The notes under the pieces were generated by a model, which was not told where the DNA came from, did not search any database, and saw nothing but the letters and a program-made list of their open reading frames with translations. The position numbers were made by a program, and so were the translations under genes. This document shows positions 1 to 64,000 of a DNA stretch of 64,000 bases, piece after piece (the stretch's first letter is position 1; each line of letters begins with the position of its first letter). The stretch is from NCBI RefSeq assembly GCF_015694705.1, contig NZ_JADQDR010000002.1, positions 248,001 to 312,000 on the forward strand, in the 5' to 3' direction. The stretch comes from Pontibacter rufus. GTDB taxonomy: Bacteria > Bacteroidota > Bacteroidia > Cytophagales > Hymenobacteraceae.

Positions 1-2991
1 TTTCCGGAAAGCCACAGCATCAACGTAGAAGGTGTAAAGGCAATTTCTAACTTCAACCCCAGCGGCTCCGCAGGCGCCTTAACCAGATTTAAGACCGCTA
101 CCGTGCGGGTTAATGTTGCCGATGGCTTGCTTACCATAAATGCAGATGGCGGCACCAATACCAAGATCAACTCAGCGAAAATTATACCTGTTACAGACGG
201 GCCTTTTACGTACTGGTCGGCTAACTCGCAGGACCTTGCTTTTGAAGAAGGAAGCACGAGCACAGTGAATACTTTCTCTCTGGATCTGAGCAATTCCCTA
301 AGCCGGACTGATGTACAGTATACTTTGTCGGCTGTTTACAGCAGTGGCGGCACAGGCTGGCTGAGTTTTGATGCTACCCATACCGGAACAGAACCGAATG
401 TTACCTTTAACTATGCTGCTGCCCGAAACCTGCCGGCAGGAACCTATACTGCCACGGTTAGTGCTGCTGCACCAGGGTATACCAGCGGAAAAACAACTGT
501 TAAAGTTACTGTCGCTGCTCCCCGGCCATACGTAATTTCCTCCACACCTGCCAATGGTGCCATAAATATCAGCATCAATACGTCCAGTATAGCTGCCAAC
601 AGCTTATATGTGCCTGAAGTTGCGGGTTACAAAGGTGGTGTAGATAATAGTACCATCACCAGCGCTACTGTTAAACTTCTCAAACTGGGCACCATCACCA
701 CAGAGGTACTGGGAGTAGTGCAGGGCACCGGCGGCGGCGATGCTATTTCTTTTTCTCCCACCTTTGCTTTGGAGGCAAACACTACCTACAAGTTTGTCGT
801 AACAGATGGCGTAAAGTCTTTCAGTGGTGCTGCTTTTAAACCTTATGCAGCAACCTTTACCACCGGCGATATCATCGCTACAGCGGAACCACTTGCTGTA
901 GAATTCACGAAAGTATCGATACCGGGTACTCAGAATAAAAAATATAGTTCGCTTTCCATCGGGCCAGACGGTAAACTGTATGCCCTGCGCCTCGATGGCG
1001 TGCTGGAGCGCTTTACCATTAATCATACCGATGGCACCCTTAGCGAACAGCAGTTTATAAACACTGTCGTCAGCAAGTATGGCAACCGCTCTGCTGTAGG
1101 CCTGGTTTTCGATCCGGCATCTACGGCCACCAACCTAATCGCCTATGTCTCTCACTGTTCTTCAGGCTTGCAGTCTGCACCGGAGTTTGACGGCAACATC
1201 TCGCGGCTGAGTGGCGCTAATCTGGAGAAGGAGCAACTGCTGGTAACCAAACTGCCGCGGTCGGCTAAAGACCACCTGGTCAACAGCATGGCCTTTGGCC
1301 CGGATGGGGCCTTATACTTCTGCCAGGGCAGTAACAGTTCTATGGGAGCATACGATGGATCATGGCAACGTAATGAGAGCCTGCTGTCAGGTGCAGTGCT
1401 GCGATTGGATATGAAGAAGCTCGGCACTGTAACACTCCCGCTAAACGTGCTTACCACGGCTGATCAGCAAATAATTAATAGTGCTTCGGGCAGCTCTATG
1501 CTAATGGCGGATGGTACCTACAACCCGTATAGCTCCAGTTCGCCACTCACTATTTATGCCTCGGGCGTACGTAATGCCTATGACCTGGTATGGCACAGCA
1601 ACGGGCAGTTGTACGTGCCTGCCAATGGCTCAGCGGCAGGCGGTAATACACCCGCCTCGGTAGCAGGTACCCGCCGGCCCAATGGCACATTCTATAATGG
1701 TCCCGCTGTGGTAGCTACCTCAAGTGTACAGGTTCAGAACGACTGGCTGTTCCGCATCAACCCGCTTAAGCCGGTGGGCTACTATGGCCATCCAAATCCG
1801 ACGCGGGGTGAGTTTGTGGTGAACCACGGATACGCGGATAACGCTAAATACCCATCTACGTTAGGCCCTGATCAGAACTACCGCGGAGATGCTTATAATT
1901 TTGAAACCAATAAATCGCCGAACGGCGCACTGGAATACAAGAGCAATGCCTTTAACGGCGCCCTGAAGGGTAAACTATTGGTATGCCGCTTTAGCGGCGG
2001 CGGCGATATCATTGTGCTGGAGCCAGGTTCGATAGTAAAAGACCCTGCTGTAACCTCTGCCAGCAGCAATGATGAAGTATACAACATTGTGCAGGCACAG
2101 ACGGGCGCAGGTACCAGCGGGCTGGTAGGTATGTCGGGCTTTATTAATCCGCTGGATATTGTAGAGGATCAGCAAACAGGCAACCTGTACGTGATCGAGT
2201 TTAACTGGAATAACAATGCCACCAGGGAGGCGCAGATTACCCTGCTGCGGGTAAGCGAGCTCTCAGACGTAGAAGGCTTTGCGTCTGCTTATCCGGCTAT
2301 GATTTCGGCGACCGAGGTAGTAGGCGCTACCGAAACTGAGACAACGTATCATGCCGTTACGATAGCAAACACTGGCAGAGGCACCCTGAATGTTAAAGGA
2401 ATCGATATTGAAGGAGCAGATGCGGGCGATTTTAAAATGATAGGAGCGCCCGACGCGAAACCGAATAAGAAAATCAAAATACGTAAAAACAGTTCTATTA
2501 CCTTTAACGTAGCTTTTACCCCTTCGTCTAAAGGAAGGAAAAAGGCCAAATTAAAGGTAGTCAGTCAGAAAAAGAAAAAGGATCAGCAGATAGAAGTCCA
2601 ACTAGATGGTTTGGGTATTGTTTACGAGGAGGCAGTTGAAGCAGCAGCCAGTGACTCTGCGGCAATTACCGCATCAGCAAAGAATGCTTTGACTACAAAG
2701 GCAACCGAAGAAACAATACAAAATAATTCCCGCCTTAAGGTTTATCCCAACCCTAACGTACAGGGTAGTAAAGTATACATAGAGTTGGAACACTTCGGCG
2801 AAAAAGAGCCGGTGACCATTACCATGTACGATGCCTTGGGCCAGGTGGTGCAGGCTAAAACCATTACAACCGATGCGCACGGAATCGCAAACACCGAAAT
2901 GCCGATAACGGAGCAAATGAGTGCGGGTATTTACATTATAAAAGCCCAGGCTGCATCCGGAGAAGAGCAAGCCAAACTGGTGATAGAATAG
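1..2991 (+). CDS. Secreted sugar-dehydrogenase-like beta-propeller protein with malectin-like and T9SS sorting domains (5' truncated)
   Basis: The frame is open from base 1 with no stop, so the gene begins outside the window; the GTG at 103 is internal. The 996 visible residues begin with the end of a malectin-like carbohydrate-binding domain (VADGLLTINADGGTNTKIN). An Ig-like segment follows, then a second Ig-like domain starting near PYVISSTPANGAINI (about residue 177). Residues about 300-740 form a beta-propeller like the PQQ-dependent glucose/sorbosone dehydrogenase family (GPDGKLYALRLDG, YASGVRNAYDLVWHSNGQLY). A choice-of-anchor-D/ASPM-type domain follows (about 765-870), then a C-terminal T9SS type A sorting domain beginning LKVYPNPN. 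It is probably exported by the type IX system and may bind or oxidise sugars; the substrate is unknown. A close paralogue lies at 6927-8954 on the other strand. Confidence 0.85.
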   Translation, partial: FPESHSINVEGVKAISNFNPSGSAGALTRFKTATVRVNVADGLLTINADGGTNTKINSAKIIPVTDGPFTYWSANSQDLAFEEGSTSTVNTFSLDLSNSLSRTDVQYTLSAVYSSGGTGWLSFDATHTGTEPNVTFNYAAARNLPAGTYTATVSAAAPGYTSGKTTVKVTVAAPRPYVISSTPANGAINISINTSSIAANSLYVPEVAGYKGGVDNSTITSATVKLLKLGTITTEVLGVVQGTGGGDAISFSPTFALEANTTYKFVVTDGVKSFSGAAFKPYAATFTTGDIIATAEPLAVEFTKVSIPGTQNKKYSSLSIGPDGKLYALRLDGVLERFTINHTDGTLSEQQFINTVVSKYGNRSAVGLVFDPASTATNLIAYVSHCSSGLQSAPEFDGNISRLSGANLEKEQLLVTKLPRSAKDHLVNSMAFGPDGALYFCQGSNSSMGAYDGSWQRNESLLSGAVLRLDMKKLGTVTLPLNVLTTADQQIINSASGSSMLMADGTYNPYSSSSPLTIYASGVRNAYDLVWHSNGQLYVPANGSAAGGNTPASVAGTRRPNGTFYNGPAVVATSSVQVQNDWLFRINPLKPVGYYGHPNPTRGEFVVNHGYADNAKYPSTLGPDQNYRGDAYNFETNKSPNGALEYKSNAFNGALKGKLLVCRFSGGGDIIVLEPGSIVKDPAVTSASSNDEVYNIVQAQTGAGTSGLVGMSGFINPLDIVEDQQTGNLYVIEFNWNNNATREAQITLLRVSELSDVEGFASAYPAMISATEVVGATETETTYHAVTIANTGRGTLNVKGIDIEGADAGDFKMIGAPDAKPNKKIKIRKNSSITFNVAFTPSSKGRKKAKLKVVSQKKKKDQQIEVQLDGLGIVYEEAVEAAASDSAAITASAKNALTTKATEETIQNNSRLKVYPNPNVQGSKVYIELEHFGEKEPVTITMYDALGQVVQAKTITTDAHGIANTEMPITEQMSAGIYIIKAQAASGEEQAKLVIE

Positions 2992-3016
2992 AACACCTGT
3001 TTAATATTTTGATGGT

Positions 3017-3063
3017 AAGTATAAACGCCCTGCAGATATAATATTTGCAGGGCGTTTATACTT
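3017..3063. terminator. Perfect 18-bp inverted repeat, terminator-like
   Basis: The arms 3017-3034 and 3046-3063 are perfectly complementary and enclose an 11-nt loop. The hairpin lies 26 bases after the stop of the first gene. The base of the stem is AAGTATAAA paired with TTTATACTT, so the usual T-tract is replaced by TTTATACTT, which contains the abundant word TATACTT. It could work on both strands. Confidence 0.75.
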
Positions 3064-3217
3064 TATGTTGTATCGGAACAAAGGGCCGGCCATTTGCTGC
3101 ATAGCTGATAAGCAGGTGTATTCTCGCTTGCCTGTTATACATCTGCCAAACAAAAATAATAGCAAAGTAGTACGTGTAAATGCTTATATTGCTTTCTAAA
3201 ACCTAAACCAAATTGTT

Positions 3218-3322
3218 ATGGGCAAATCACAAGACGCAAAAAAAGAGGTGAAGAAAAAACCTGCTAAAACAGTAAAAGAGAAAAGGGCCGAAAAGCAGGA
3301 GAAAAAGAAGGGCAAAGAGTAG
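3218..3322 (+). CDS. Very small lysine-rich protein, 34 aa
   Basis: This ATG-initiated frame encodes 34 residues starting MGKSQDAKKEVKKKPAK and ending KKKGKE; roughly half of the residues are lysine. I recall similar 30-40 residue lysine-rich proteins with an MGKSQ start as conserved hypotheticals in Bacteroidota, but could not check this. The composition suggests a disordered, nucleic-acid-binding or ribosome-associated role, which is inference from charge alone. It lies between the terminator of the preceding gene and the aldo/keto reductase gene 35 bases downstream, and could share a transcript with the latter. Confidence 0.6.
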   Translation: MGKSQDAKKEVKKKPAKTVKEKRAEKQEKKKGKE

Positions 3323-3357
3323 CCCGCCTGCACCTGGAGTAATTTAAACACAGATAT

Positions 3358-4329: not shown

Positions 4330-4352
4330 GAAGCTCTGCGCTCGGAAATTAC

Positions 4353-4385
4353 AAAAGCCTCCGGTTGCTGTACCGGAGGCTTTTT
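4353..4385 (+). terminator. Rho-independent terminator after the aldo/keto reductase
   Basis: A 13-bp perfect stem (4353-4365 with 4372-4384) around a 6-nt loop is followed by a run of T. The core is GCCTCCGGT/ACCGGAGGC. The leading A run mirrors the T run, so it could also act on the minus strand. Confidence 0.85.
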
Positions 4386-4455
4386 AGTGACCTAAACATA
4401 CTTCCTGTACTTTACTCATAACCAGGATATTCCCAGAATTCTATACGGATTATAC

Positions 4456-4905
4456 ATGGCCCTGACAAACATATGCAAGGCGTTTGATGCCCTCACCCCC
4501 TATCAGGTATACGACATGCTGCGCCTCCGGAGTGAGGTGTTTGTAGTAGAGCAAACCTGCATTTTTCTGGACCAGGACAACAAAGATCAGCAATGCATAC
4601 ATGTGCTGCTTTACGACGAGCAAGAGCTTGTTGCTACTGCCCGGCTGGTACCCCGGGGCCTCTCTTACCCGGATGCCGTATCCATCGGGCGCATTGTAAC
4701 CAGCCCTCGTGTGCGCGGCACTGGTGTAGGCAAAATATTGGTAAACATGGCCATAGCTGCGTGTTACCGCCTTTATGGTGCAGGCCCTATCAGGATTGGC
4801 GCTCAGGTTTATGCAAAAGGGTTCTATGAATCTTTTGGATTTGAGCAGTCCGGTGAGGTATACGACGAGGATGGCATCGACCACATAGAAATGACCAAAG
4901 TATAG
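4456..4905 (+). CDS. elaA: ElaA-type GNAT N-acetyltransferase
   Basis: This 149-residue protein has the fold and length of the ElaA branch of the GNAT superfamily. Typical marks are the N-terminal LRLRSEVFVVEQ stretch, the central LVATARLVPRG strand and the acetyl-CoA pyrophosphate loop RVRGTGVGK at residues 85-93. It should transfer an acetyl group from acetyl-CoA to an amine; the substrate is not known. The ATG at 4456 follows the upstream terminator by about 70 bases, so the gene probably has its own promoter. The stop codon overlaps an AAGTATA word. Confidence 0.8.
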   Translation: MALTNICKAFDALTPYQVYDMLRLRSEVFVVEQTCIFLDQDNKDQQCIHVLLYDEQELVATARLVPRGLSYPDAVSIGRIVTSPRVRGTGVGKILVNMAIAACYRLYGAGPIRIGAQVYAKGFYESFGFEQSGEVYDEDGIDHIEMTKV

Positions 4906-5080
4906 ATAGTCCGTTCATACCTGCTGCCACATATACCACCTGTTTACTAAGCTGACCTGCGCATTATAACTTTTATAAAAGCTGGTATTCGGCTTATTAG
5001 GTGCAAGACTTATACCAGATTAACGCTATCAATGAGCCTGGTAGCAACACTTTTCTTTAATTCACAAATATTCATCAAGT

Positions 5081-5317
5081 ATGGCAGACCTGTCTCAACC
5101 AGACCCCGCAATCTTAACTGAGCTTGTAACGGTAAAAATGCCTTTTGGCAAGTATAAAGGCACCACTCTCTGCGATTTGCCTGTATCTTATCTGGAGTGG
5201 TTTCAGCGTGAAGGATTTCCGCAGGGCAAGCTGGGCATGCAGTTGGCTACTATTTATGAGATTAAAACCAACGGCCTGGCTTATCTGCTGGAGCCGTTAA
5301 AAAGGCGGCGTATCTGA
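5081..5317 (+). CDS. DUF3820 family protein
   Basis: This 78-residue protein matches the small DUF3820 family, recognisable by MPFGKYKGTTLCDLPVSYLEW (with substitutions) and the Gly-Lys rich loop after a short N-terminal helix. Family members are uncharacterised; some are annotated as putative quorum-sensing-regulated virulence factors or sit beside exonuclease domains, but nothing here supports a specific function. It is cytosolic, has no signal peptide, and is convergent with the ATP-grasp gene on the other strand, 53 bases away. Confidence 0.75.
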   Translation: MADLSQPDPAILTELVTVKMPFGKYKGTTLCDLPVSYLEWFQREGFPQGKLGMQLATIYEIKTNGLAYLLEPLKRRRI

Positions 5318-5370
5318 AGTATAGACATGTTGCATAATACTTTGGCAGCAGTTACAAAAGCTCATGCTTG

Positions 5371-6276: not shown

Positions 6277-6325
6277 CAGGGCATTGTAGGTTATGAGGGC
6301 TTCAGCACTTAAAAGTAAGAGGCTT

Positions 6326-6370: not shown

Positions 6371-6388
6371 CATATAAATTAGTGCTTG

Positions 6389-32154: not shown

Positions 32155-35100
32155 ATGAAAATCCTTGCTGTCCGTTTCCAGAACCTGAACTCCCTGAAAG
32201 GAGAGCACGAAATCCGCTTCGACCAGAGCCCCCTGGCAGAGGCCGGGCTGTTTGCTATTACGGGCCAGACGGGAGCAGGCAAAACCACCATTCTGGATGC
32301 GATAACAGTTGGATTGTACGGCCTGGTGCACCGCCACAGCAACGACAAGCCGCTGGAACTGATGACGCGCCACACGGCCGAGAGCTTTGCAGAGGTTACA
32401 TTTGAAGCCAATGGTAAGCGCTACCGTTCCAAGTGGCACATCCGCCGTAGCCGCGGCAAAGCAGGCGGCAACATGCAGCCGGTACACATGGAGTTGTACG
32501 ACTTTGAGGAAGACGCGCTGTTTGACCTGAAACCCAGCCAGGTACCGGAAAAAGTGGCCGAACTATGCGGCCTGGACTACAACCAGTTTCTGCGCTCCGT
32601 CATGCTCTCGCAGGGCGATTTTGCACGCTTCCTGAAGGCCAACCCCAACGAGCGCAGCAGCCTGTTGGAAAAGATCACAGATACACACATCTATTCCGAA
32701 ATATCAAAATCTGCTTTTAAGAAGGCCAAGGAAGAGCAACAGAAAAAGGAAGATTTAGAACGTCGTCTGCAGGACACGTCCCTGCTGCCTGAAGAGCAGC
32801 GCCAGGCTTATGAACAAAGTATAAACGAACTGGCAGCACAAGAGGCCATACTCCAACAGGACATCTCCGTACTACAGGCACAGGTACAATGGCTGCAGCA
32901 GGTAGCTGTCCTGCAGGCGAAAAAGCAGCAGCAACAAGCGGCTCTGCAGGTGCAGGAGCAGAAGCTGGAGAGCCTGAAGCCGGACTTCCGGAAGCTGCAG
33001 CAGCATGAACAGGCGCATCAGTTTGCAGGCGAACTAGCAGAAATCCGCAGCGCCAACGGCAGGCTGACGGAAGTACAGGAACAACTCCTGACACTGGAGC
33101 AACGGCTGCCGGTGCTGGAAACGGAACTGGAACTAGCCGGAAACATTGCTGCCGAAGCTGGTAAAGCCCATCAGCAGCAGGAAGAAGCGCTGCAAAAACT
33201 GGAGCCGCTGCTCGCGCAGGTCGTTAAACTGGATCACCAGTTGCACACCATCCGCGACAATTATAAGCAAGATAAAGAGGCCTATGTTGCTTTTGAGGAG
33301 CAACTGAAGCAGGAACAGATGCTGCTGCAAACCCGCCAACAGGAGCTGGACGAGCTGACACAGCAGGCGGCAAGTATAAAAAGCTGGCTGGAGCAGCATG
33401 CACGCCTGCAGGATTTACACGAGCATCTGCCGGAATTCAGGAGCACCCTGCGCGATATACAGGAAGTGGAGCAACGCATCAAACGCAACCAACAGGAGCA
33501 GCAGGAGTTGCAACAGCAGCTCCGCCAGGAAGCACAGCAGGCAGCACAACTGGAACTGGTACAGGCGCAGCAACAGGTACAGCAGCAACAGCTGAACATA
33601 CAAAAACAGGAAAAGCTGGCCCGGCTGCAAAGCATGCTTTCTGATAAAAGTATGGAGGAGCTGGAACAGGCGGCGCAGGCACAGCCGGCAATGCTGGCCA
33701 GGTATGAGCGCCTGCAGGAACTCGCCCGGCAACATGCCATACTTCAGCAAAAGTTGCAAAGTATTGACAACCAATGGCAGGAGCACAGGCAGGAAGAAGC
33801 AACCAAAAAAACACAACTGCAGGCGGCACAGCAGCAGTATGAAGATGCCACAGCGCACCTGGCCACGCTCCAGAAACTGGTGCTTTTGCAACAGCAGATG
33901 CAGCAATACGAGGAGGCGCGCCATACCTTAAAACCGGACGAGCCCTGTCCACTTTGCGGCTCTGTGCACCATCCTTTTGCGGAAGACGGTTATACTTTCG
34001 ATTTGCCGGAAGAAGTACAGAAACGCGACAAGCAGCAGGCATTGGCAAAAGAGCTGGAACAACAGGTAAATGCACTGCAACTGCAGTTGAGTGCGCTGGC
34101 GCAAAAGCAAAGTATGGCCGCCGCATCCAAAGCCGAAACAGAAACGGAGTTAAGCCGCCTGCACCATACATTCACGCAGCTGGCCGGGGGCATTTCTGAA
34201 AGTATAAGTATAAGCGATGGGGCCGGATTGGCGGAACTGATGCTGGCGCAGCAGGAATCGGCAGATGCGTTGCAGCAAAAACTAACACAGGCGCGCACGC
34301 TGAGCCGGGAACTGGAAAGTATAAACCAGGCGCTGCAACTGCTGCGCGAAGCACAGGTGCAGGCAACGGGCAAGTATAACCAGCTGCAGCAGTCGGACAG
34401 AATGCTGCAAACCCAGCTGCAGAAGCTCCAAACCATACTTGCCGATGAGCAGGAACAGCAGCAGGACCACACGCAAACTGCCGAATCATTTGCTGCCTCT
34501 TTCGGATTGGTTTATAAACCGGAAGAGCGGCAGCAACTGTTACAAACGTTGGAACAGCAGTCTGCCGCTTTTGCACAAAAGCAGCAGGCGCTGGAACAAA
34601 GGCGGGAGAAGTATGTAGAGTTGAAGGCAGAAGTTAACAACCGGAAAGCCAACGCGCAGCAGAAGGAAAAAGAATTGCAGGAGCGGCAGCAGGCTCTGAA
34701 GGAAGCACACGAGCACCTCACACAAATAAAAGCAGCGCGTCAGGAATTATTCGGGGAAAAAGACCCGGAGCAGGAGCGCCAGCAGGCCCGGCAGGCATTG
34801 CGCCTCCATGCCCTGCAAGCCGAAGAGGCGCGTACCAGGCAGCTGCAAAAGCAGCAGGAACTTCGCGAATCCCGCGCGCGCCAGGCAGAATGCCACGCCA
34901 AACAACAGCAAAATAAATCGGTGCTGAACGAGCTGAAAGAAGGATTGCTGCGCGTGCTCCGGCAAAAAGGCATCGAAACGATAGAGGCGCTCAGCCAGAT
35001 GCTCCTTGACCGCGACGAAGCCGAACGCCTTGCCAACCTCAAAGCCCAGACCGAAAAACACCTGACGGAGCTGCGGAAGTCGCTGCGTGATGTGCAGCAG

Positions 35101-35808
35101 GAACTGGCGCAAACCCAGGCCCTGGAATTGACAACGGAAAATACAGACCTCTTACAAAACCAGTATCAGGAGAAAATAGCGCAGCAGCGCGACCTGATTG
35201 GGCAGCGCGCCCGCTGTCAGCAACTACTGGAGCAGGATGCACAGCAGCGCGAAAAAAACAGGGAACTGGCCGGGCAACTGCAAACGCAGCAGCAGGTATA
35301 TCACCGCTGGGCACAGCTCTCAGATTTAATCGGATCGGCAGATGGCAACAAATTCAGCCGCTTTGCGCAGGGGCTTACGCTGGCACGGCTGGTGGAACTG
35401 GCCAACCGGCACCTGCAAAAGCTCAACGACCGCTACCGCATCCTTAAAAGCCAGGAGGAAGACCTCGAACTGCTGATTGTGGATACCTACCAGGCCGAGG
35501 CCGTGCGCCCGATGAACACGTTATCCGGGGGAGAGAGTTTTCTGGTGAGCCTCTCGCTGGCATTGGGCCTCTCTGACTTGGCCGGACGCCGTACGCAGAT
35601 CAACTCTCTGTTCATAGATGAAGGCTTCGGCACACTGGACGCAGAAACGCTGGATGCCGCTATCTCGACACTGGAAAACCTGCAGGCCAGCGGCAAAATG
35701 ATTGGTATTATTTCGCATGTGGAGGCGCTGAAGGAACGCATCGGCACCCAGATAAAAGTACAACGGCAGGCCGGTGGCATAAGTATAATAGAAGTGGTGG
35801 GTGGATAA
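32155..35808 (+). CDS. sbcC: Exonuclease SbcCD, ATPase subunit C
   Basis: This 1217-residue SMC-like ATPase has Walker A ITGQTGAGKTTILDAI (P-loop at residues 37-44), a long coiled coil interrupted by the zinc hook CPLCG (Cys598, Cys601), the ABC signature LSGGESFLVSLSLALG (about residue 1123) and Walker B SLFIDEGFGTLD (about 1150). The coiled coil is unusually rich in glutamine, with many QQ and QQQ runs. It forms the SbcCD complex with sbcD upstream and powers opening of DNA ends and hairpins. Closely spaced AAGTATA words occur at 34200-34212, where they encode Ser-Ile dipeptides. Confidence 0.95.
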   Translation: MKILAVRFQNLNSLKGEHEIRFDQSPLAEAGLFAITGQTGAGKTTILDAITVGLYGLVHRHSNDKPLELMTRHTAESFAEVTFEANGKRYRSKWHIRRSRGKAGGNMQPVHMELYDFEEDALFDLKPSQVPEKVAELCGLDYNQFLRSVMLSQGDFARFLKANPNERSSLLEKITDTHIYSEISKSAFKKAKEEQQKKEDLERRLQDTSLLPEEQRQAYEQSINELAAQEAILQQDISVLQAQVQWLQQVAVLQAKKQQQQAALQVQEQKLESLKPDFRKLQQHEQAHQFAGELAEIRSANGRLTEVQEQLLTLEQRLPVLETELELAGNIAAEAGKAHQQQEEALQKLEPLLAQVVKLDHQLHTIRDNYKQDKEAYVAFEEQLKQEQMLLQTRQQELDELTQQAASIKSWLEQHARLQDLHEHLPEFRSTLRDIQEVEQRIKRNQQEQQELQQQLRQEAQQAAQLELVQAQQQVQQQQLNIQKQEKLARLQSMLSDKSMEELEQAAQAQPAMLARYERLQELARQHAILQQKLQSIDNQWQEHRQEEATKKTQLQAAQQQYEDATAHLATLQKLVLLQQQMQQYEEARHTLKPDEPCPLCGSVHHPFAEDGYTFDLPEEVQKRDKQQALAKELEQQVNALQLQLSALAQKQSMAAASKAETETELSRLHHTFTQLAGGISESISISDGAGLAELMLAQQESADALQQKLTQARTLSRELESINQALQLLREAQVQATGKYNQLQQSDRMLQTQLQKLQTILADEQEQQQDHTQTAESFAASFGLVYKPEERQQLLQTLEQQSAAFAQKQQALEQRREKYVELKAEVNNRKANAQQKEKELQERQQALKEAHEHLTQIKAARQELFGEKDPEQERQQARQALRLHALQAEEARTRQLQKQQELRESRARQAECHAKQQQNKSVLNELKEGLLRVLRQKGIETIEALSQMLLDRDEAERLANLKAQTEKHLTELRKSLRDVQQELAQTQALELTTENTDLLQNQYQEKIAQQRDLIGQRARCQQLLEQDAQQREKNRELAGQLQTQQQVYHRWAQLSDLIGSADGNKFSRFAQGLTLARLVELANRHLQKLNDRYRILKSQEEDLELLIVDTYQAEAVRPMNTLSGGESFLVSLSLALGLSDLAGRRTQINSLFIDEGFGTLDAETLDAAISTLENLQASGKMIGIISHVEALKERIGTQIKVQRQAGGISIIEVVGG

Positions 35809-45229: not shown

Positions 45230-46483
45230 ATGGATCGAGTATTAGAAAAAAAGAAAAACACCCCTCAGAAAATTGCGCTAATTGCCGCTGGTGCCGTTGT
45301 GCTGGCAATAGTTATTTACAACCTGTTGTTTGCCGAACATACTTCTAAGCTGAATGTAGACAGCGAGCGCATCACGGTTGGAAAGGTGCAGGAAGGCGTT
45401 TTTCAGGAATTCATTGCCATTGATGGTTCTGTAGAGCCGCTTAAATCTTTTTATCTCGATATTATAGAGGGCGGCCGTGTAGATAAAATTTTTACCGATG
45501 ACGGCCGCATGGTGCAGAAAGGCGACACCATCCTGAAATTATCGAACACCACGCTGCAGATTGACTTTATGACGCGCGAAACGCAGCTCTATGACCTGAT
45601 GAACGAGCGCCAGAACTCAGAAATCCAGATGAAGCAGGACCTGATAAAGAAGCAGAACGAACTGGCTGAGATTGAATATAACCTGGCCCTGATTGACCGC
45701 AAGTATAAGCGCAACCAGATGCTGATTAAAGAGAAGGTGATTTCGCGGGAAGAGTATGAAGCTTCGAAAGATGAATACGAATACCAGACCAAGCGCAAAG
45801 AGCTGGCCGACCGCTCTGTAAAGCAGGATACCCGCCTGATGCAAGAGCGCCTGCGCCAACTGGATGAGTCCATTAACCGCATGAAAGCGAATATCAACAT
45901 GGCACGCGGCACGCTCAACAACCTGTACGTCATCGCTCCTTTTACGGGGCAGCTGTCTACGCTGAAAGCCGAAGTGGGCGAGTCGAAAGCGCCGGGCGAA
46001 AACATTGGCCAGATAGACGACCTGAATGGCTATAAAATAAAAGCGAACATCGACGAGCATTATATTTCCCGAGTGTATCCGGGCCTGACCGGCTCCTTTG
46101 ATTTCAACGGGAAAACTTACCAGGTAAAAGTTGCCAAAGTGATTCCAGAAGTGCAGAACAATACCTTTGAAGTAGATATGGAGTTTGCAAATGGCACTAC
46201 ACCCGAAGGTATCCGCCGTGGCCAGACGCTACAAATAAAATTGAACCTGAACGGCGGCGGCGAAGCGGTACTGGTGCCACGCGGCGGTTTCTACCAAAGT
46301 ACCGGCGGCAACTGGATATTTGTAGTAGACGAATCGGGTGACTTTGCCACCAAACGCAACATCAAACTGGGCCGCCAGAACCCGAACTACTACGAAGTAC
46401 TGGATGGCCTCCGACCAGGTGAAAAAGTGGTACTCTCCTCCTACGACAGTTACGGCGACATCGACCGGTTGGAGCTACAGTAA
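45230..46483 (+). CDS. Periplasmic adaptor of a tripartite exporter (HlyD/MacA-type)
   Basis: From the ATG at 45230 the protein has 417 residues: one membrane helix (about residues 15-35, IALIAAGAVVLAIVIYNLLFA), a split biotinyl-lipoyl domain (IIEGGRVDKIFTDDGRMVQKGDTIL and VIAPFTGQLSTLKAEVGESKAPGE), a long coiled-coil hairpin (about 110-215) and beta-barrel and membrane-proximal parts (IRRGQTLQIKLNL...GGNWIFVVDE). It should bridge the inner-membrane permeases to the TolC-like protein encoded at the end of the cluster. It is the first gene after the regulatory region. Confidence 0.9.
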   Translation: MDRVLEKKKNTPQKIALIAAGAVVLAIVIYNLLFAEHTSKLNVDSERITVGKVQEGVFQEFIAIDGSVEPLKSFYLDIIEGGRVDKIFTDDGRMVQKGDTILKLSNTTLQIDFMTRETQLYDLMNERQNSEIQMKQDLIKKQNELAEIEYNLALIDRKYKRNQMLIKEKVISREEYEASKDEYEYQTKRKELADRSVKQDTRLMQERLRQLDESINRMKANINMARGTLNNLYVIAPFTGQLSTLKAEVGESKAPGENIGQIDDLNGYKIKANIDEHYISRVYPGLTGSFDFNGKTYQVKVAKVIPEVQNNTFEVDMEFANGTTPEGIRRGQTLQIKLNLNGGGEAVLVPRGGFYQSTGGNWIFVVDESGDFATKRNIKLGRQNPNYYEVLDGLRPGEKVVLSSYDSYGDIDRLELQ

Positions 46484-46586
46484 TGTGCTGATTTCTTAAT
46501 GTGCTGATGTGCTACTTGCGCCAGTAAAGGGGGAGACAACAATCAACCATTTAGCAATTTAACAATTCGGCCATTAAGCACATTAA
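46480..46586. repeat. Inverted AATGTGCT-type repeat in adaptor-ATPase gap
   Basis: AATGTGCTGA occurs twice (from 46482 and 46498), and TTAATGTGCT at 46496-46505 is inverted at 46577-46586 (AGCACATTAA). The first copy overlaps the adaptor's stop codon. It resembles short AT-rich dispersed repeats and could form a large hairpin that weakens read-through to the ATPase gene. Confidence 0.5.
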
Positions 46587-46637
46587 CCACGCATTTAGTA
46601 CAAAATAAAACTAGAACAATATCACAAAACCACTACA

Positions 46638-47357
46638 ATGAATAAGGAAGAATTAATCATCGAAACGGAGAACCTCCAGAAGAAGTACATCACCGACACG
46701 GTAGAAACCACCGCGCTGGCAGGTGTAGATCTTAAAATCAAAAAAGGCGAATTTGTGGCCATCATGGGTCCGTCGGGTTGTGGCAAATCTACGCTGCTCA
46801 ACATCCTGGGCATGCTCGACAGCCCTTCTTCCGGCGCTTTCCGTTTCCTGGGCCAGGACATCAGCAAGGCTACCGAGCGCCAGCGGGCCAAGCTGCGCAA
46901 AGAAAACCTGGGCTTTGTATTCCAGAGTTTTAACCTGATTGACGAGCTGACCGTGGAAGAAAACATTGCACTGCCCCTGGCTTACCTGGGCGTATCGAAG
47001 GCAGACACCGAGAAGAAAGCCAGAGAAGCCATGGAGCGCATGGGCATCGCGCACCGCCGCAACCACTTCCCGCAGCAGCTATCCGGTGGCCAGCAGCAGC
47101 GCGCCGCCATTGCCCGCGCTACCGTGTCGAACCCCAGCCTGATACTGGCAGACGAACCGACCGGTAACCTGGATTCGGTGCACGGCCGTGAGGTGATGTC
47201 GCTGCTATCAGAGCTGAATGAGGCCGGTACCACTGTGGTAATGGTAACGCACTCCCCGTCAGATGCCGAGTATGCGCACCGCATTGTAAACCTGTTCGAT
47301 GGCCAGATTGTAACGGAAAACCTGAACGTAAGAAGACACGCAACCGAGTTGCTTTAA
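46638..47357 (+). CDS. ABC exporter ATPase, MacB/LolD type
   Basis: This 239-residue ATP-binding protein has Walker A GPSGCGKST (residues 44-52), the Q-loop FVFQSFNLIDELTV, the signature QLSGGQQQR, Walker B LILADEPTGNLD and the H-loop VTHS, all typical of the MacB/LolD/FtsE class. It is the only ATPase encoded in the cluster, so it presumably powers all three permeases that follow. ABC exporters of this class move lipoproteins, peptides or antibiotics from the periplasmic face by mechanotransmission. Confidence 0.95.
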   Translation: MNKEELIIETENLQKKYITDTVETTALAGVDLKIKKGEFVAIMGPSGCGKSTLLNILGMLDSPSSGAFRFLGQDISKATERQRAKLRKENLGFVFQSFNLIDELTVEENIALPLAYLGVSKADTEKKAREAMERMGIAHRRNHFPQQLSGGQQQRAAIARATVSNPSLILADEPTGNLDSVHGREVMSLLSELNEAGTTVVMVTHSPSDAEYAHRIVNLFDGQIVTENLNVRRHATELL

Positions 47358-47367
47358 GCTCCTTGCT

Positions 47368-47402
47368 GACCTCGCGGTGTGCGCAGCTCCCGCGAGTGTC
47401 TG
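47368..47402. repeat. Second copy of the GACCTCGC hairpin repeat
   Basis: This 35-base segment matches 31890 onward except for transitions, including the paired change from CTCGCAG/CTGCGAG to CTCGCGG/CCGCGAG that keeps the internal stem. It begins 11 bases after the ATPase gene. Confidence 0.7.
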
Positions 47403-47414
47403 ATAACCGGAAAC

Positions 47415-47451
47415 CAGACACTTACAGCTTTAGAAACACTGTGAGTGTCTG
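47415..47451. repeat. CAGACACT hairpin between ATPase and first permease
   Basis: The 13-base arms 47415-47427 and 47439-47451 pair with one mismatch around an 11-nt loop. There is no T run, so attenuation rather than full termination is possible. Confidence 0.55.
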
Positions 47452-47537
47452 TGGCTACCGCAATAAGAGATGCAAGATACCGCGACGCTTCCATTTACCA
47501 CCTTGCCCGTTTCGCCTGATCATAAAACCTTAAATCT

Positions 47538-49937
47538 ATGCTGCAGAACTACTTCAAAATCGCCATCCGAAACATTGTTCGCAACAAGGTATACTCGGCT
47601 ATTAACATTGTTGGCTTGGCTATTGGTATTTCTGCGTGTATCCTTATTTTTTTGTATGTGCAGGACGAACTCAGCTACGAAAGCCACTTCGATAAGGCTG
47701 ACCGCATAGTGCGCATTGCCAGCGAGATTAAGAATGAAGGCCAAATAGACAGGTTTGCTTTGTCCCCGCCAGTACTTGCGCCTAATCTCATACAGGATTT
47801 CCCGGAACTGGAGCATGTCACTCAGTTATTAGAAGCCCAAAAACAAACTATCTGGTACAAAGAAAAAAGCTTTAATGAAGACAACTTGCTGTATGCTGAC
47901 AGTTCGTTTTTTGACATATTCAACTATGAATTTATAGCTGGCGATCCTGGCACAGCACTCCATGAACCAAACACGATAGTGATAAGTGAGACAATGGCAC
48001 AGAAGTATTTTGGCTCAGTTGATAAAGCCCTGGGCGAAGTACTCACTTTTAACCCGGACCTATACCATGTTACAGGTGTATTCCGGGATAAAGGCCATTC
48101 TCATATTAAAGCAAATGCTTTCTTAGCACGCAGCACCTTCGATAGGCAACGTCAAGACGTGTTAACGGGCACGAACCATTGGTTTAACATGAATCGATAC
48201 ACGTATGTGCTACTAAAAGATACCTCCCAGATTCAACCATTCCAAGACAAGCTCAAGGCATTCGTTGCGACACACGTTACCCCTTGGATAAAAGAAAACA
48301 ATCTAAATGCCTCCATGACTTTTATTCTGCAGCCGTTGAGCAGCATTCATTTCGACACGGTTTACAGGGACGACATTACACCGGCAGGTAACATCAACTA
48401 CGTTTATATTTTTGCGGCGGTCGCCGTTTTCCTGCTGCTCATTGCTAGCATCAATTACATGAATTTAACCACGGCACGCTCTGCCAAACGTGCCAAAGAA
48501 GTAGGTCTTCGAAAGGTTGTAGGAGCTTATCGCTCTCAGATTATCAGCCAGTTTATGGGCGAATCTCTGCTGATAACACTGGTGTCTGTGCTGTTGGCAC
48601 TGGCACTGGTACAAATCATGATTCCTATGTTTAATACGTTTACAGGCAAGCAGTTTGAGTCAGGTTTCTTTTTGCAGAAAGAAGTTTTGCTGGCTCTGCT
48701 TGCCATAGTCGTGTTTATAGGAGTAGTAGCCAGTAGCTATCCGGCCATCTTCCTATCTGGCTTTAAGCCAGTTGATGTTCTGAAGACCGATAAGGCTCCG
48801 AAAGGCGGTAACGCGATACTGCGAAAGACACTGGTTGTGGTACAGTTCGCTATTTCTTTGATTATGATAATCGGAACCATTGTAGTATTTAATCAGATGC
48901 ACTTCCTGAAAAACCGTGATTTAGGCTTCAACAAGGAGCAGGTGCTTGTAATTGAAATTCCGTTTGGCGACTCCACTCTAATTCAGCAAATACCTGGCAT
49001 AAAACACGAGCTACTGAGTAACCCTAACATTGAACAGGTTTCAAACGCGCAAGACATTCCTGCAGAGTCGCTCAATAACTTGCTTGTGTTTGCTGAAAAA
49101 GACGGCAAGACTTTACAAAACAGCATGAATGTTATGTTTGTGGATTATGATTTTATAGATGCTATGGGTATAGAATTGAAAGAAGGCCGCAATTACTCCA
49201 AAGATTATCAAACTGACCTAAAAGGGGCCCTGGTTATAAATGAAGCGGCCGCCAGAAAGATGGAGTGGCAAGAGCCTATCGGAAAACGCCTGGAATTGCT
49301 TGACAGGGATGCAAAGGTAATTGGGGTGGTAAAAGATTTCAACGTAAAATCCCTGCACACTAACATAGAACCTATTATACTGGCACTTGTACTTGAGTCT
49401 CCTGGCTACCTCCTGATGCGCATTAAGCCACAGAATATGGCTTCTACCATCAGTTTTATAGAGAACAAGTGGAGATCCCACTACCCGAAACACCCAATGG
49501 AATACTTCTTTATGGATGAATTCTTTGATAAACAATACCGCGCCGAAGAAAAGATGCTGACCATTTTCGGGTACTTCGCGGGCCTCACCATTTTCATCGC
49601 CTGCCTCGGTTTGTTTGGCCTTGCCTCCTTTACAGCCGAGCAGCGCACCAAGGAAATTGGTATTCGCAAAGTGTTGGGCAGTTCTGTTTCGGGCATCGTT
49701 ATACTTCTATCCATGAATTTCGCGCTGCTGGTTTTAATTTCGATTGTGCTGGCTATACCCATCGCCTGGTATGGTATGAATAAGTGGCTACAGGACTTCG
49801 CCTATAGAGTCGAACTTAGTTGGTGGATATTCGCTGTGGCAGGCTTGGGGGCTATGGTTATTGCGCTGTTAACCATTAGTTACCAAGCTTTAAAAGCGGC
49901 GATAGCAGACCCAGTAAGAGCATTACGTTCTGAATAG
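47538..49937 (+). CDS. MacB-like ABC permease 1
   Basis: This 799-residue permease begins MLQNYFKIAIRNIVRNKVYSAINI and has an N-terminal helix (about residues 18-40), a periplasmic MacB core domain, a central FtsX domain (about 285-430, with ANYMN-like SINYMNLTTARSAKRAKEVGLR coupling helix), a second periplasmic domain and a C-terminal FtsX domain (LFGLASFTAEQRTKEIGIRKVLG). The double-FtsX layout is typical of Bacteroidota. It is closely related to permease 2, sharing even the leader AAATCTATGCTGCAGAACTA, which indicates tandem duplication. Its codons look more AT-rich than those of permease 2. Confidence 0.9.
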   Translation: MLQNYFKIAIRNIVRNKVYSAINIVGLAIGISACILIFLYVQDELSYESHFDKADRIVRIASEIKNEGQIDRFALSPPVLAPNLIQDFPELEHVTQLLEAQKQTIWYKEKSFNEDNLLYADSSFFDIFNYEFIAGDPGTALHEPNTIVISETMAQKYFGSVDKALGEVLTFNPDLYHVTGVFRDKGHSHIKANAFLARSTFDRQRQDVLTGTNHWFNMNRYTYVLLKDTSQIQPFQDKLKAFVATHVTPWIKENNLNASMTFILQPLSSIHFDTVYRDDITPAGNINYVYIFAAVAVFLLLIASINYMNLTTARSAKRAKEVGLRKVVGAYRSQIISQFMGESLLITLVSVLLALALVQIMIPMFNTFTGKQFESGFFLQKEVLLALLAIVVFIGVVASSYPAIFLSGFKPVDVLKTDKAPKGGNAILRKTLVVVQFAISLIMIIGTIVVFNQMHFLKNRDLGFNKEQVLVIEIPFGDSTLIQQIPGIKHELLSNPNIEQVSNAQDIPAESLNNLLVFAEKDGKTLQNSMNVMFVDYDFIDAMGIELKEGRNYSKDYQTDLKGALVINEAAARKMEWQEPIGKRLELLDRDAKVIGVVKDFNVKSLHTNIEPIILALVLESPGYLLMRIKPQNMASTISFIENKWRSHYPKHPMEYFFMDEFFDKQYRAEEKMLTIFGYFAGLTIFIACLGLFGLASFTAEQRTKEIGIRKVLGSSVSGIVILLSMNFALLVLISIVLAIPIAWYGMNKWLQDFAYRVELSWWIFAVAGLGAMVIALLTISYQALKAAIADPVRALRSE

Positions 49938-49963: not shown

Positions 49964-49979
49964 TATACTTATAAGTATA
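49964..49979. repeat. Perfect 16-bp palindrome TATACTTATAAGTATA
   Basis: Two opposed TATACTT/AAGTATA words separated by AT lie 17 bases before the ATG of permease 2, in the 59-base gap after permease 1. It may be a protein-binding site or simply two copies of the abundant word. Confidence 0.7.
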
Positions 49980-58038: not shown

Positions 58039-58072
58039 ATCGAATCACGAGCCATTAGTATAAAGTAAACCT

Positions 58073-59428: not shown

Positions 59429-59453
59429 GGTCAAACGTCTGCTACCCGATTTA

Positions 59454-59488
59454 AAGCCGGCATCCGCAGGGAACCGGCTTCTTTTTTT
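59454..59488 (+). terminator. Rho-independent terminator ending the export cluster
   Basis: AAGCCGG (59454-59460) pairs with CCGGCTT (59474-59480) and is followed by seven T residues. It lies 25 bases after the TolC-like gene. Confidence 0.75.
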
Positions 59489-59537
59489 ATTTAGTTATAA
59501 ACATATATAGATAAATAACGTTATTCTGCAGAACATC

Positions 59538-59569
59538 TTTGTTCTTGTATTGATATTTTGTTATTTTAC
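59538..59569 (+). promoter_or_regulatory. Bacteroidota-type promoter candidate of the TonB receptor gene
   Basis: TTTG (59538-59541) and TATTTTAC (59562-59569) are separated by 20 bases, resembling the -33/-7 elements of Bacteroidota promoters with two mismatches in the -7 box. The ATG is 31 bases downstream. Confidence 0.4.
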
Positions 59570-59600
59570 GTAACATAATATAGCAAGCTTTACTTCCTTT

Positions 59601-61925: not shown

Positions 61926-62731
61926 TGACGCGCATATTTTTATACTTGCTGTTGCCCCTGCTGCTACTGCTCTGCAGTTGTGATCTTCAAAAAGATATTG
62001 AAGTTGAACTGCCACCCTATGCACCCCAACTGGTAGTAGAGTGCTATCTGGAGCCCGGCCAGCCATTCCGGTTGACGGTGCTGGAAAGCAGCAGTTATTT
62101 TGAAACGCCCCAGCCGGTGGTGGTTGACGATGCACAGGTATACATTACCTACAACGGCAAAAGAACAGAGGTGCCCTACAAGCCAACTTACAATGAGAGC
62201 TCCGGCCGCCTGTATACACATGTTTCTGATGAGGTAATGAACGGCAAGCCAGGTGATGTATATGACCTGGAGGTAAGGGACGAAAAGGGCAGGAAGGTAA
62301 CCGGCACTACCACCATCCTGCCAAAGGTGCCCATCGATACCATAGAATGGAAGTTTAACGAAAAAGATAAAGCCTACCTGCTCACCAGCTTCCAGGACAA
62401 CCCCAACTCAGCAGATTATTACCGCTACTTTGTGCACCAGGACAGCCTTAAAACAGACCCAGACCAAAATTTTACCAGTTCCGATAATTTATCAAACAAC
62501 AAGCGCATATCCTATGGTTCTGGCTTCGACTATGAGCAGGGCGATGTAGTTATTGTTACGCTATTCCACATCGAGAAGCAGTACTACGATTTTCTGAACT
62601 CCACCGCCGATGCCCGTAACGCCAACGGCAACCCCTTTGCACAGCCCGCACAAATTGAATCTTCCGTACAGGGCGGCATCGGCATTTTTACCAACCTGGC
62701 TTTCGACCGCAAAGTGGTGGTAATAAAGTAG
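61925..62731 (+). CDS. DUF4249 family lipoprotein
   Basis: This 268-residue lipoprotein has a signal ending LLLLLCSC with Cys19 as lipid site and Asp next to it. DUF4249 features are the start LPPYAPQLVVECYLEPGQPFRLTV, VDDAQVYITYNGKR, PGDVYDLEVRDEKGRKVTG and the end GIFTNLAFDRKVV. It is the usual partner of the preceding short TonB receptor, with a one-base overlap, and probably a surface-exposed ligand-binding lid. The ligand is unknown. Confidence 0.9.
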   Translation: MTRIFLYLLLPLLLLLCSCDLQKDIEVELPPYAPQLVVECYLEPGQPFRLTVLESSSYFETPQPVVVDDAQVYITYNGKRTEVPYKPTYNESSGRLYTHVSDEVMNGKPGDVYDLEVRDEKGRKVTGTTTILPKVPIDTIEWKFNEKDKAYLLTSFQDNPNSADYYRYFVHQDSLKTDPDQNFTSSDNLSNNKRISYGSGFDYEQGDVVIVTLFHIEKQYYDFLNSTADARNANGNPFAQPAQIESSVQGGIGIFTNLAFDRKVVVIK

Positions 62732-62985
62732 CCGCGTCCAGTAACCGGCAGGCTTTCAGCCAAAGTATAGCAGGCGGAATTAAAGCATGTAGCTTAAGTA
62801 TGGCTATATCAGGTACAAGGCTCTTTTCTTTATTTTGATAAGCAGCATTCTATACTTCACGGTAAAACATTTAAAATGTACTCTTTATTTTATCCGCTTC
62901 CTTATTCGATACAGTGCTTCAAATCCTTTTGCTTTTATGAACGTTTTCTACTATTAACTAGCACAGGATTTACAAGAACTAAAAT

Positions 62986-62996
62986 AAAGGAGGTGA
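62986..62996 (+). promoter_or_regulatory. Perfect Shine-Dalgarno site
   Basis: AAAGGAGGTGA is an 11-base complement of the 16S 3' end, 8 bases (from GGAGG) before the ATG at 63002. None of the other genes in the window shows such a site; Bacteroidota seldom use them. Confidence 0.85.
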
Positions 62997-63001
62997 AAAC
63001 A

Positions 63002-63301
63002 ATGGCAAAAACAACCTGGAAAGCGGATACGACGCATGGCGATTTAAGCACCAAAGAAAAAAACGATTTACCGGACAGTGTTTTCGCTTTTCCGAAACAG
63101 CGCAAAGAGCCTTTAACGGACGCTTCGCACGTTAAAAATGCCCTGGCACGATTTGACCAGGTAAAAGGTGTGACAGATGAAGATCGCGATTTAGCTTTCG
63201 CCAATATCAGGAAAGCCGCCGAACATTACGGCGTGGAAGTCAGCGAGACCAACTGGCACGAACTCGGCAAAACACCGCATACTAAAAACCCGTCTCATTA
63301 A
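63002..63301 (+). CDS. DUF6582-like small protein
   Basis: The start at 63002 follows an ideal Shine-Dalgarno site; the open frame extends 42 codons upstream without similarity. The 99-residue protein has the block NDLPDSVFAFPKQRKEPLTDASHVKNALARFDQVKGV and an end KAAEHYGVEVSETNWHELG, which I recognise as DUF6582. This family also occurs as part of phage and mobile-element proteins; its function is unknown. The protein is hydrophilic and cytosolic. The strong translation signal suggests high expression or acquired origin. Confidence 0.8.
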   Translation: MAKTTWKADTTHGDLSTKEKNDLPDSVFAFPKQRKEPLTDASHVKNALARFDQVKGVTDEDRDLAFANIRKAAEHYGVEVSETNWHELGKTPHTKNPSH

Positions 63302-63414
63302 CCGCAAATTAAGATTTGCAGCAGAAGTATAAAGTATAGCAGGAAAAATTAAAGCCTGGAAGTATAACGGTTAAATATAAATAAATATATTTGAGTAAAC
63401 CTATACTTCCTCCT

Positions 63415-63837
63415 ATGAAAGCAAAACTTTTACTCACACTGCTATTCGCCTTGTTGCTGGCACAGAAAGGTTTCTGCCAGTTAAACGTTTCCTACCACCA
63501 GTCCAGCCTGCCATTTATTGCCGTGGGCTACGAGTCCGTGCACTGGACACCCGAGCTACGGCTAAACACGGACATTTATACTTCTGACCTGAGTGCCGAG
63601 GTGGTGGTGCCTTACAAAATCGTGCGCAAAGAAAGTTATTACCTGGATGCCGGCTTGGGTTTCCGCGCTGGCCTTAATCAGGGGCTGTTAGTGCCCGTGG
63701 GCCTCTCGGTTTTCCCGTTTGAGCGGAAGCAGTTTGGCTTTCATACAGAACTTGCCTGGCTGACCGGCATCGGCGGCTCCAGTTCTGTGCTGCGCGGCAG
63801 CTGGGGCATCACGTTCCGGTTCAAGGAAAAATCTTAG
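63415..63837 (+). CDS. Small exported outer-membrane-like protein
   Basis: The ATG at 63415 starts a signal peptide (MKAKLLLTLLFALLLAQKGFCQ); an earlier TTG in frame is less likely. The remaining 118 residues alternate polar and aromatic/hydrophobic residues in short strands (LPFIAVGYESVHW, RLNTDIYTSDLSAEVVV, YYLDAGLGFRAGL, WGITFRFKEKS), like a small eight-stranded beta-barrel or outer-membrane fold. I do not recognise a named family. The upstream spacer has three AAGTATA words. Confidence 0.65.
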   Translation: MKAKLLLTLLFALLLAQKGFCQLNVSYHQSSLPFIAVGYESVHWTPELRLNTDIYTSDLSAEVVVPYKIVRKESYYLDAGLGFRAGLNQGLLVPVGLSVFPFERKQFGFHTELAWLTGIGGSSSVLRGSWGITFRFKEKS

Positions 63838-63889
63838 CTGTAAGGCAGCAGCACCTACACACTGCCGCTGCCTTCAATTTCTTTTAAAG

Positions 63890-64000
63890 TTAACTGTTCC
63901 GGATCAGCTCCCGGATCAGCATGGTCATATGTGGCTCTGCTTTGGCAGCGGCGGCCAGTATATCGGCCAGCACCACCTGCTTCAGTTGCCCGGGCGTGCA
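63890..64000 (-). CDS. 3' end of an unidentified minus-strand gene
   Basis: On the minus strand the frame is open from the right edge to a TAA at 63890 and encodes 36 residues: CTPGQLKQVVLADILAAAAK followed by AEPHMTMLIRELIRNS. The codon use resembles real genes here and the segment looks helical. Too little is visible to name the product. It converges with the small outer-membrane-like gene. Confidence 0.55.
   Translation of the reverse strand, partial: CTPGQLKQVVLADILAAAAKAEPHMTMLIRELIRNS

Follow-up and report, generated by a model that had tools for sequence, protein, structure and literature searches.

AAGTATA, a heptamer over-represented in Pontibacter rufus, as a probable dialect of an uptake-sequence-like self-tag

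The heptamer AAGTATA (TATACTT on the opposite strand) is strongly over-represented in a 64,000-nucleotide stretch of the Pontibacter rufus genome (positions 248,001 to 312,000 of contig NZ_JADQDR010000002.1; hereafter, the window) as well as in the genome from which the window was taken. Other Pontibacter genomes carry words that differ from AAGTATA by one base, and these words follow the phylogeny of the genus. By analogy with known systems, we consider it probable that AAGTATA is the local dialect of a self-tag that resembles a DNA uptake sequence (DUS) and is spread by biased natural transformation.

AAGTATA is over-represented in the window and in the source genome

The window encodes proteins of Bacteroidota type (a Por secretion tail, DUF4249, a TonB receptor), and its NAPRTase has named Pontibacter loci among its best matches. 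It contains 108 copies of AAGTATA on both strands, i.e. approximately one per 0.6 kb, versus 6.4 ± 2.1 copies and a maximum of 13 in 100 dinucleotide shuffles. Markov models of order 2 and order 3 predict 10.5 and 21.7 copies, respectively, and AAGTATA ranks first among all 7-mers in the window by order-2 z-score. The Markov test was extended to 464 kb of the source genome, i.e. 400 kb of contig C11 and the window, rather than to the whole genome; in this sample, 694 copies were found versus 159 expected at order 3, placing AAGTATA first of 8186 words, and masking the word before the model is fitted lowers the expectation to 83. Over the 5.03 Mb of the source genome, AAGTATA occurs 7427 times (3623 and 3804 on the two strands), and the reversed word used as a control occurs 590 times (276 and 314).

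A preliminary description of the window, made from the sequence, had reported seven copies in the first 5.4 kb and proposed a Markov test of the excess. All seven positions carry the word, two copies that had been overlooked (at 319 and 1313) bring the number to nine, and the count in the 464-kb sample lies far above the Markov expectation. We conclude that the over-representation of AAGTATA is confirmed.

The density of the word in the source genome sample ranges from 4 to 27 copies per 10 kb with a mean of 14.65. The 250-280 kb region of contig C11, which encodes EF-Tu, L7/L12, RpoC, EF-G and SecY, contains 18 copies in 30 kb, four of which are in RpoC alone; a second AAGTATA-poor stretch contains glycosyl hydrolase and esterase genes.

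AAGTATA is present in genes and spacers and in all reading frames

Genes in the 464-kb sample were called by a codon-score script written for this analysis, and 684 sites were classified. Among these, 421 are genic (1.13 per kb) and 263 are intergenic (2.88 per kb), i.e. the word is present in both compartments, as had been described, and 2.5-fold denser in spacers. The six combinations of frame and orientation hold 46, 49, 68, 76, 89 and 93 genic copies, and genic copies are divided equally between the sense (210) and the antisense (211) orientation. Thus, the word is used in several frames, as the preliminary description stated, and a codon-pair bias in a single frame does not account for it.

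In the window, the base following AAGTATA is an A in 70 of the 108 copies, and the next base is an A in 52 of the 108. Pooled logos of the three main Pontibacter words (AAGTATA, AGGTATA and AACTATA, none of which is palindromic) give (A)AAGTATAAA, CAGGTATAG and AACTATAG; past the first two flanking bases, no position holds more than ~0.1 bit.

Words one base apart follow the phylogeny of Pontibacter

AAGTATA was counted in 150 Hymenobacteraceae genomes (50 of Pontibacter and 100 from five other genera), and each of the 50 Pontibacter genomes was assigned to a dialect from the strongest word in the 20 kb around comEC. AAGTATA was the main word in 20 genomes, AGGTATA in 12, and AACTATA in five. 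AAGTATA occurs 4114-11818 times in the 20 AAGTATA genomes and 112-1661 times in the 100 genomes of the other genera, among which the highest counts, those of genus g3, are about twice the reversed controls. Similarly, AGGTATA occurs 5748-9303 times in its 12 genomes and 720-3132 times elsewhere. AACTATA occurs 11674-13168 times in its five genomes, 3531 times in G038 and otherwise at most 1969 times outside G028 and G055, both of which carry two words (8118 AACTATA and 7552 AAGTATA in G028; 6094 AACTATA and 9116 AAGTATA in G055). This mixing is graded, as the AACTATA genome G013 also carries 5110 AAGTATA. The word near comEC was AGGTAGAG in G125, a weaker word in G002 and G115, and a weak AACTATA in G131 and G073. 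Finally, six genomes (G008, G023, G095, G109, G113 and G127) had no clear word, a class that can hide a weak excess, as in G008 (AAGTATA 1987 versus 946 reversed; AGGTATA 1919 versus 617).

In a tree built by a quick search from ComEC and the products of four neighbouring genes (50 rows and 1631 columns; midpoint root, no outgroup), the 12 AGGTATA genomes form one clade and the seven AACTATA-carrying genomes, G028 and G055 included, form another, each with a support of 100. The no-word genomes fall at at least three places. From single-gene trees, comEC of G043 and G087 and the helix-hairpin-helix gene of G087, described below, were left out because of low coverage. We conclude from this quick search on five neighbouring genes that the dialects follow phylogeny, mixed genomes included. 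Because AAGTATA genomes are found on both sides of the midpoint root, AAGTATA looks like the ancestral dialect, as judged from one locus without an outgroup.

Words are kept within dialects, and some sites are rewritten between them

To follow individual sites, we aligned 7542 reciprocal-best gene pairs of the comEC loci codon by codon. Counts of such pairs are not independent, and the retention tables cover 43 of the 50 genomes (20 AAGTATA, 12 AGGTATA, 5 AACTATA and 6 no-word), those with mixed, weak or other words (G028, G055, G131, G073, G125, G002 and G115) being dropped. Between AAGTATA genomes, the word was kept at 85/523, 347/921, 392/823 and 110/180 sites at protein identities of <60, 60-75, 75-90 and >90%, respectively, and generic 7-mers were kept at 0.064, 0.111, 0.205 and 0.351, i.e. 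word retention is 1.7 to 3.4 times that of generic 7-mers. In no-word genomes, AAGTATA was kept at 13/337, 12/365 and 5/223 sites, below the generic values of 0.056, 0.086 and 0.168. Within the two other clades, retention at 75-90% identity was 471/732 for AGGTATA (generic, 0.213) and 38/82 for AACTATA (generic, 0.235). By genome, the ratio of word to generic retention ranged from 0.66 (G071) through 1.10 (G085) and 1.29 (the source genome) up to 3.53 (G075). The comparison of orthologous positions, which the preliminary description had suggested, therefore gives words that are kept within a dialect and lost in no-word genomes. Moreover, the excess retention and the equal numbers of sense and antisense copies support its proposal that selection, or drive, acts on the DNA word itself. 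Some comparisons across dialects show the opposite trend: AGGTATA words of AGGTATA genomes were unchanged in AAGTATA genomes in 27/164 comparisons at 75-90% identity, which indicates that some words sit on conserved protein stretches.

With the listed identity classes summed, AAGTATA sites were aligned to AGGTATA in 81/1458 comparisons with AGGTATA genomes, 43/2447 with AAGTATA genomes and 6/925 with no-word genomes. Alignment to AACTATA was seen in 56/618 comparisons with AACTATA genomes, all 56 from the <60% identity class, and in 0/2447 and 0/925 with AAGTATA and no-word genomes, respectively. Counted as distinct alignment columns in 21 orthogroups, 107 columns carry AAGTATA, 60 AGGTATA and 28 AACTATA; nine are common to AAGTATA and AGGTATA, six to AAGTATA and AACTATA, and two to AGGTATA and AACTATA, with means of 0.22, 0.36 and 0.08, respectively, under a column shuffle that ignores amino-acid constraint. 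We conclude from this small sample that some sites have been rewritten in place between dialects.

When aligned to no-word genomes, 141/2737 word sites and 447/24993 sites of a generic sample had a gap or frame break, and word sites showed more differences than generic sites. Since 95% of the word sites align gap-free, copies came mostly from substitution, and the surplus of gaps at word sites is in keeping with weakly constrained places. Insertion of a mobile mini-element was considered and rejected, as only these 141 word sites have a gap or frame break.

Competence genes are found throughout Pontibacter and are broken in two genomes

ComEC and DprA were found in 50/50 Pontibacter genomes. 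The family PF12836 was likewise found in 50/50, partly owing to a larger protein of about 775 amino acids; the ComEA-like helix-hairpin-helix (HHH) protein of 304-346 amino acids is present in 49 genomes, and its gene has broken frames in G087. G087 and G043 are the two genomes in which ComEC and DprA are both interrupted by in-frame stops; the HHH gene, broken in G087, is open in G043. In G119, ComEC has a shorter open frame of 561 amino acids. The 12 neighbours of the HHH gene that are common to G087 and G064 keep at least 92% of their G064 length, and genes in the rest of G087 have normal lengths. Competence genes that are broken amid full-length neighbours point to one dispensable pathway, as in Riemerella (PMC8459023), and the gene frames are consistent with an apparent coordinated loss of competence in G087 and G043. 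The density of AAGTATA in G087 is 1.0 per kb, below that of its eight nearest relatives (1.2-2.3 per kb), and retention is not clearly reduced.

A proposed DNA-uptake reading of AAGTATA

Several processes had been proposed as the source of the word in the preliminary description; among these, a signal for DNA uptake fits best, and a signal for replication is unsupported. In a competent Pontibacter cell, a putative outer-membrane receptor would prefer double-stranded DNA bearing the word. The imported DNA would then pass the ComEA-like protein with its double HHH motif and, subsequently, ComEC, and would be protected by DprA before recombination into the chromosome. As word-bearing alleles would be imported more often, copies that arise by point mutation would spread by molecular drive, limited by selection on proteins. 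A one-base shift in the preference of the receptor would lead to the rewriting of sites over time and, in this way, to dialects. The data show the excess of the word, its dialects and the clades that carry them, retention specific to the dialect, change in place at some sites, the distribution over genes, spacers and strands, and the competence genes. That an uptake receptor reads the word, that it is spread by transformation, and even that Pontibacter can be transformed, we infer.

Several observations weigh against this reading. First, retention in the source genome is only a little higher than that of generic 7-mers (40/193 = 0.207 versus 0.161), and in G071 it is lower (43/304 = 0.141 versus 0.213); G071 has the lowest AAGTATA count of its class (4114) and open ComEC and DprA frames, and is perhaps a genome that is losing its word preference. 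Copies are clustered, with a coefficient of variation of the spacing of 1.19 versus 1.00 ± 0.04 for the null, by which even spacing was rejected.

Second, the signs of rewriting in place are concentrated. The AGGTATA excess is limited to the 60-75% identity class (63/570 versus 16/921), with none at <60% (15/658 versus 12/523) or at 75-90% (3/230 versus 9/823). Moreover, comEC holds 5/9 of the columns shared by AAGTATA and AGGTATA, 6/6 of those shared by AAGTATA and AACTATA, and also 2/2 of those shared by AGGTATA and AACTATA, and the amino-acid constraint that the shuffle ignores counts on the same side.

Third, the competence genes and the word do not go together closely. The six no-word genomes retain ComEC, DprA and the HHH protein, i.e. 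these genes do not predict the word. Conversely, a loss of words is not evident in the competence-broken genomes. G043 still carries 9303 AGGTATA, and words of G087 are retained at 37/104 sites of the comEC locus, with a ratio to generic 7-mers typical of its relatives, and at 10/29, 8/15 and 3/6 in 100-kb comparisons. On the dialect stems, any acceleration of ComEC and the HHH protein stays within the range of neighbouring proteins.

Fourth, the known machinery is incomplete. No full ATPase of a type IV pilus or type II secretion system was detected: the PF00437 matches listed span 38-66 of the 370 profile positions, and the cut-off was exceeded in only 3/50 genomes, in a search in which 31 candidates were scored in most genomes, a few remained unscored, and pilin and secretin families were not included. 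A classical DUS machine, or one for the uptake signal sequence (USS) of Pasteurellaceae, thus seems to be absent. DUF5689, which is essential for transformation in Riemerella, was found in 22/50 genomes and was not detected in the source genome. It was rejected as the reader of the word, being found in 22/50 genomes and, in six of the 22 loci viewed by eye, having neighbours that resemble nutrient loci of the SusC/SusD type or are unrelated. Finally, our literature search found no report of transformation in Pontibacter. Among the papers listed by the same search, none presents AAGTATA as an uptake sequence, and subscription papers lay mostly outside it.

Alternative explanations

The main alternative is a mechanism like that of cyanobacterial HIP1, in which a methyltransferase and methylation-dependent repair or conversion would make and keep the word without DNA uptake, and dialects would follow changes of the methyltransferase target. 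We regard this as rather unlikely. HIP1 is a comparable case, as it is over-represented genome-wide, and in some lineages alternate HIPs, with a matching methyltransferase, have taken its place (PMC4390886). Moreover, such a mechanism works without a receptor and would account for the persistence of the word where competence genes are broken. However, HIPs are palindromes tied to methyltransferases, and the Pontibacter words are not palindromes. Also, single-base correction predicts that one-base neighbours of AAGTATA are depleted, but these are mostly near expectation, with a lowest observed/expected ratio of 0.7, and AAGTATG is enriched 4.3-fold. In the absence of a strongly depleted neighbour, single-base conversion towards AAGTATA was rejected.

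Alternatively, AAGTATA could be the site of an abundant DNA-binding protein that functions in nucleoid organisation, segregation or repair, and be kept by selection for spread-out sites. Constraint at the level of the word, equal use of the strands and the excess in spacers are all compatible with such a site. By contrast, a static function does not easily account for thousands of sites that changed by one base in two clades, or for the loss of the word elsewhere, and a preference for promoters is not observed, as spacer density is similar across the four gene arrangements (2.2-3.4 per kb). We therefore consider this explanation improbable.

A Chi-like or replication-polar recombination signal would, like AAGTATA, be a short non-palindromic word with very many copies, and the preliminary description had suggested a link to replication. 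With the leading strand approximated by GC skew, comEC loci pooled over the AAGTATA genomes give an unequal count (322 copies on the G-rich strand versus 435 on the other), but these loci are orthologous and hence not independent. Over all comparisons there is no consistent polarity: the counts are 285/254 at the AGGTATA loci, 150/179 at the AACTATA loci and 116/101 over ten windows of G087, a single-contig genome (G-rich versus other strand in each case), and the two strands along 400 kb of the source genome carry 282 and 304 copies. Thus, strand bias gives no support to a replication-polar signal, and this explanation is very unlikely.

We give still less credence to a transcription signal, i.e. 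a promoter element or a terminator stem, the latter having also been proposed in the preliminary description. Convergent spacers are the densest (3.38 per kb), close +- pairs outnumber -+ pairs (44 versus 25 in the source genome sample), and some copies may double as terminator stems. On the other hand, 421 of the 684 classified sites are genic, in all frames and both orientations, which a terminator alone cannot cover, and the flanks are without an extended consensus. Lastly, although the ATA codon is often within the word (157/1813 ATA codons overlap AAGTATA in the two frames counted), codon-pair or compositional bias is hardly tenable, since all six frame and orientation classes are in use, the Markov controls leave the excess in place, and other Pontibacter genomes whose base composition is similar have different words.

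Comparison with known uptake tags

Two families that use type IV pili, Neisseriaceae and Pasteurellaceae, are already known to have uptake tags with dialects. In Neisseriaceae, DUS dialects follow phylogeny and have a common core, and one genome contains two dialects in near-equal numbers (PMC3630211). The Pontibacter words resemble DUS in being short and non-palindromic, present in thousands of copies, divided into phylogenetic dialects with a shared core, and joined in two-dialect genomes. They differ in sequence and in belonging to Bacteroidota, in which we found no full type IV pilus ATPase, and the uptake role is proposed here by analogy. In Pasteurellaceae, the USS comprises two dialects with a shared inner core, and its proposed receptor is a type IV minor pilin (PMC12616744); genic copies are found in both orientations (PMC2346458). 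The likeness to these systems comprises an over-represented word, dialects with a shared core and both orientations in genes, whereas the extended USS runs to 17 bases and the Pontibacter word has little information beyond its nearest flanks. The likeness to HIP1 lies in a genome-wide abundant word with lineage-specific alternates (PMC4390886).

Within Bacteroidota, transformation of Riemerella depends on ComEC, DprA, ComF, RecA and an HHH protein, and four proteins essential for transformation are without homology to known machines (PMC8459023). R. columbina prefers its own DNA, and the k-mer table of the same report contains A/T-rich words only (PMC7965970). Pontibacter resembles Riemerella in that both belong to Bacteroidota and possess ComEC, DprA and an HHH protein (PMC8459023), and differs from it in the DUF5689 protein and in the type of k-mer (PMC7965970).

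In total, AAGTATA would work like DUS and USS, and we do not file it as a member of these classes because a search for the type IV pilus ATPase gave partial matches only and the uptake role is proposed by analogy. With these partial matches, the reader of the word would be of a new, pilus-independent kind. It is conceivable, with the balance slightly to the other side, that Hymenobacteraceae evolved their own sequence-specific uptake system and genome tags independently and without a type IV pilus. We are equally tentative about the suggestion that a new class of outer-membrane receptor reads the words and that shifts in its preference rewrite genomes and help to split species. If true, this would be a third case of such tags, in another phylum and apparently without a type IV pilus, i.e. 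a convergence of self-recognition in bacterial sex; it would allow one to test whether tags arise by molecular drive or by selected function; and it would help to trace how transforming DNA crosses the outer membrane in Bacteroidota, as covariation with the dialect is expected of the receptor.

Words of other Hymenobacteraceae

In single stretches of ~20 kb from other genera, some top words have the TA[CG] core found in Pontibacter. Words with this core were observed in relatives at L019 (P. aquaedesilientis), L027 (Hymenobacter ginkgonis), L181 (G114), L164 (G004) and L054 (H. setariae). CCCTACC occurs 2138-4733 times genome-wide in six g5 genomes (G053, G090, G092, G104, G114 and G124), in which the reversed word occurs 333-404 times; it exceeds 1500 copies also in G120, G145 and G149, and the rest of the 150 genomes have at most 1371. 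As H. ginkgonis shows CCCTACC too, g5 is presumably Hymenobacter. Aligned by eye, words of Pontibacter (TTATACTT, CTATACCT, CTATAGTT and CTCTACCT) and of Hymenobacter and other genera (CCCTACCC, CCCTAGCC and CCCTAGGT) may share the pattern YYNTASNY, which we offer only as a lead. Unlike these words, a 20-kb stretch of genus g3 (L173, from G019) contains AAATATT 64 times versus 14.2 expected and AATATTG 33 times versus 7.0.

Copies and arrangements in the window

The field of 108 copies, found by word search on both strands, covers positions 1..64000. In its first 5.4 kb, the two copies added here are on the minus strand at 319..325 and 1313..1319. Among the seven already described, two lie on the plus strand within the open reading frame 103-2991, at 2075..2081 and 2771..2777, and three lie further downstream on the plus strand, at 4898..4904, 5150..5156 and 5317..5323. 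The remaining two form an inverted pair, with the first arm 3' of the reading frame on the plus strand (3017..3023) and the second on the minus strand (3057..3063). An imperfect inverted repeat of approximately 47 bases (3017-3063), with one of these copies at either outer end and AAGTATAaacgccctgca on both strands, directly follows the reading frame; judged from its sequence, it is possibly a terminator.

The widest gap between adjacent copies is 4.0 kb (45701..49706) and covers an ABC transporter ATPase gene and a MacB/FtsX gene. A head-to-head pair, TATACTTATAAGTATA, is present at 49964..49979 in the spacer that separates two MacB/FtsX genes, and two copies on the plus strand directly abut at 63325..63338. 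Two overlapping copies, AAGTATAAGTATA, lie on the plus strand at 34200..34212 within an SbcC/Rad50-like gene (32155-35808). The whole genome contains 22 + 43 copies of this 13-mer, many of them in two tandem arrays, versus 0 of the reversed control. Such (AAGTAT)n arrays are found in G000 at the end of contig C2 (208618-208696) and at the start of contig C8 (5-77) in the same orientation, and perhaps represent one long array that broke the assembly.

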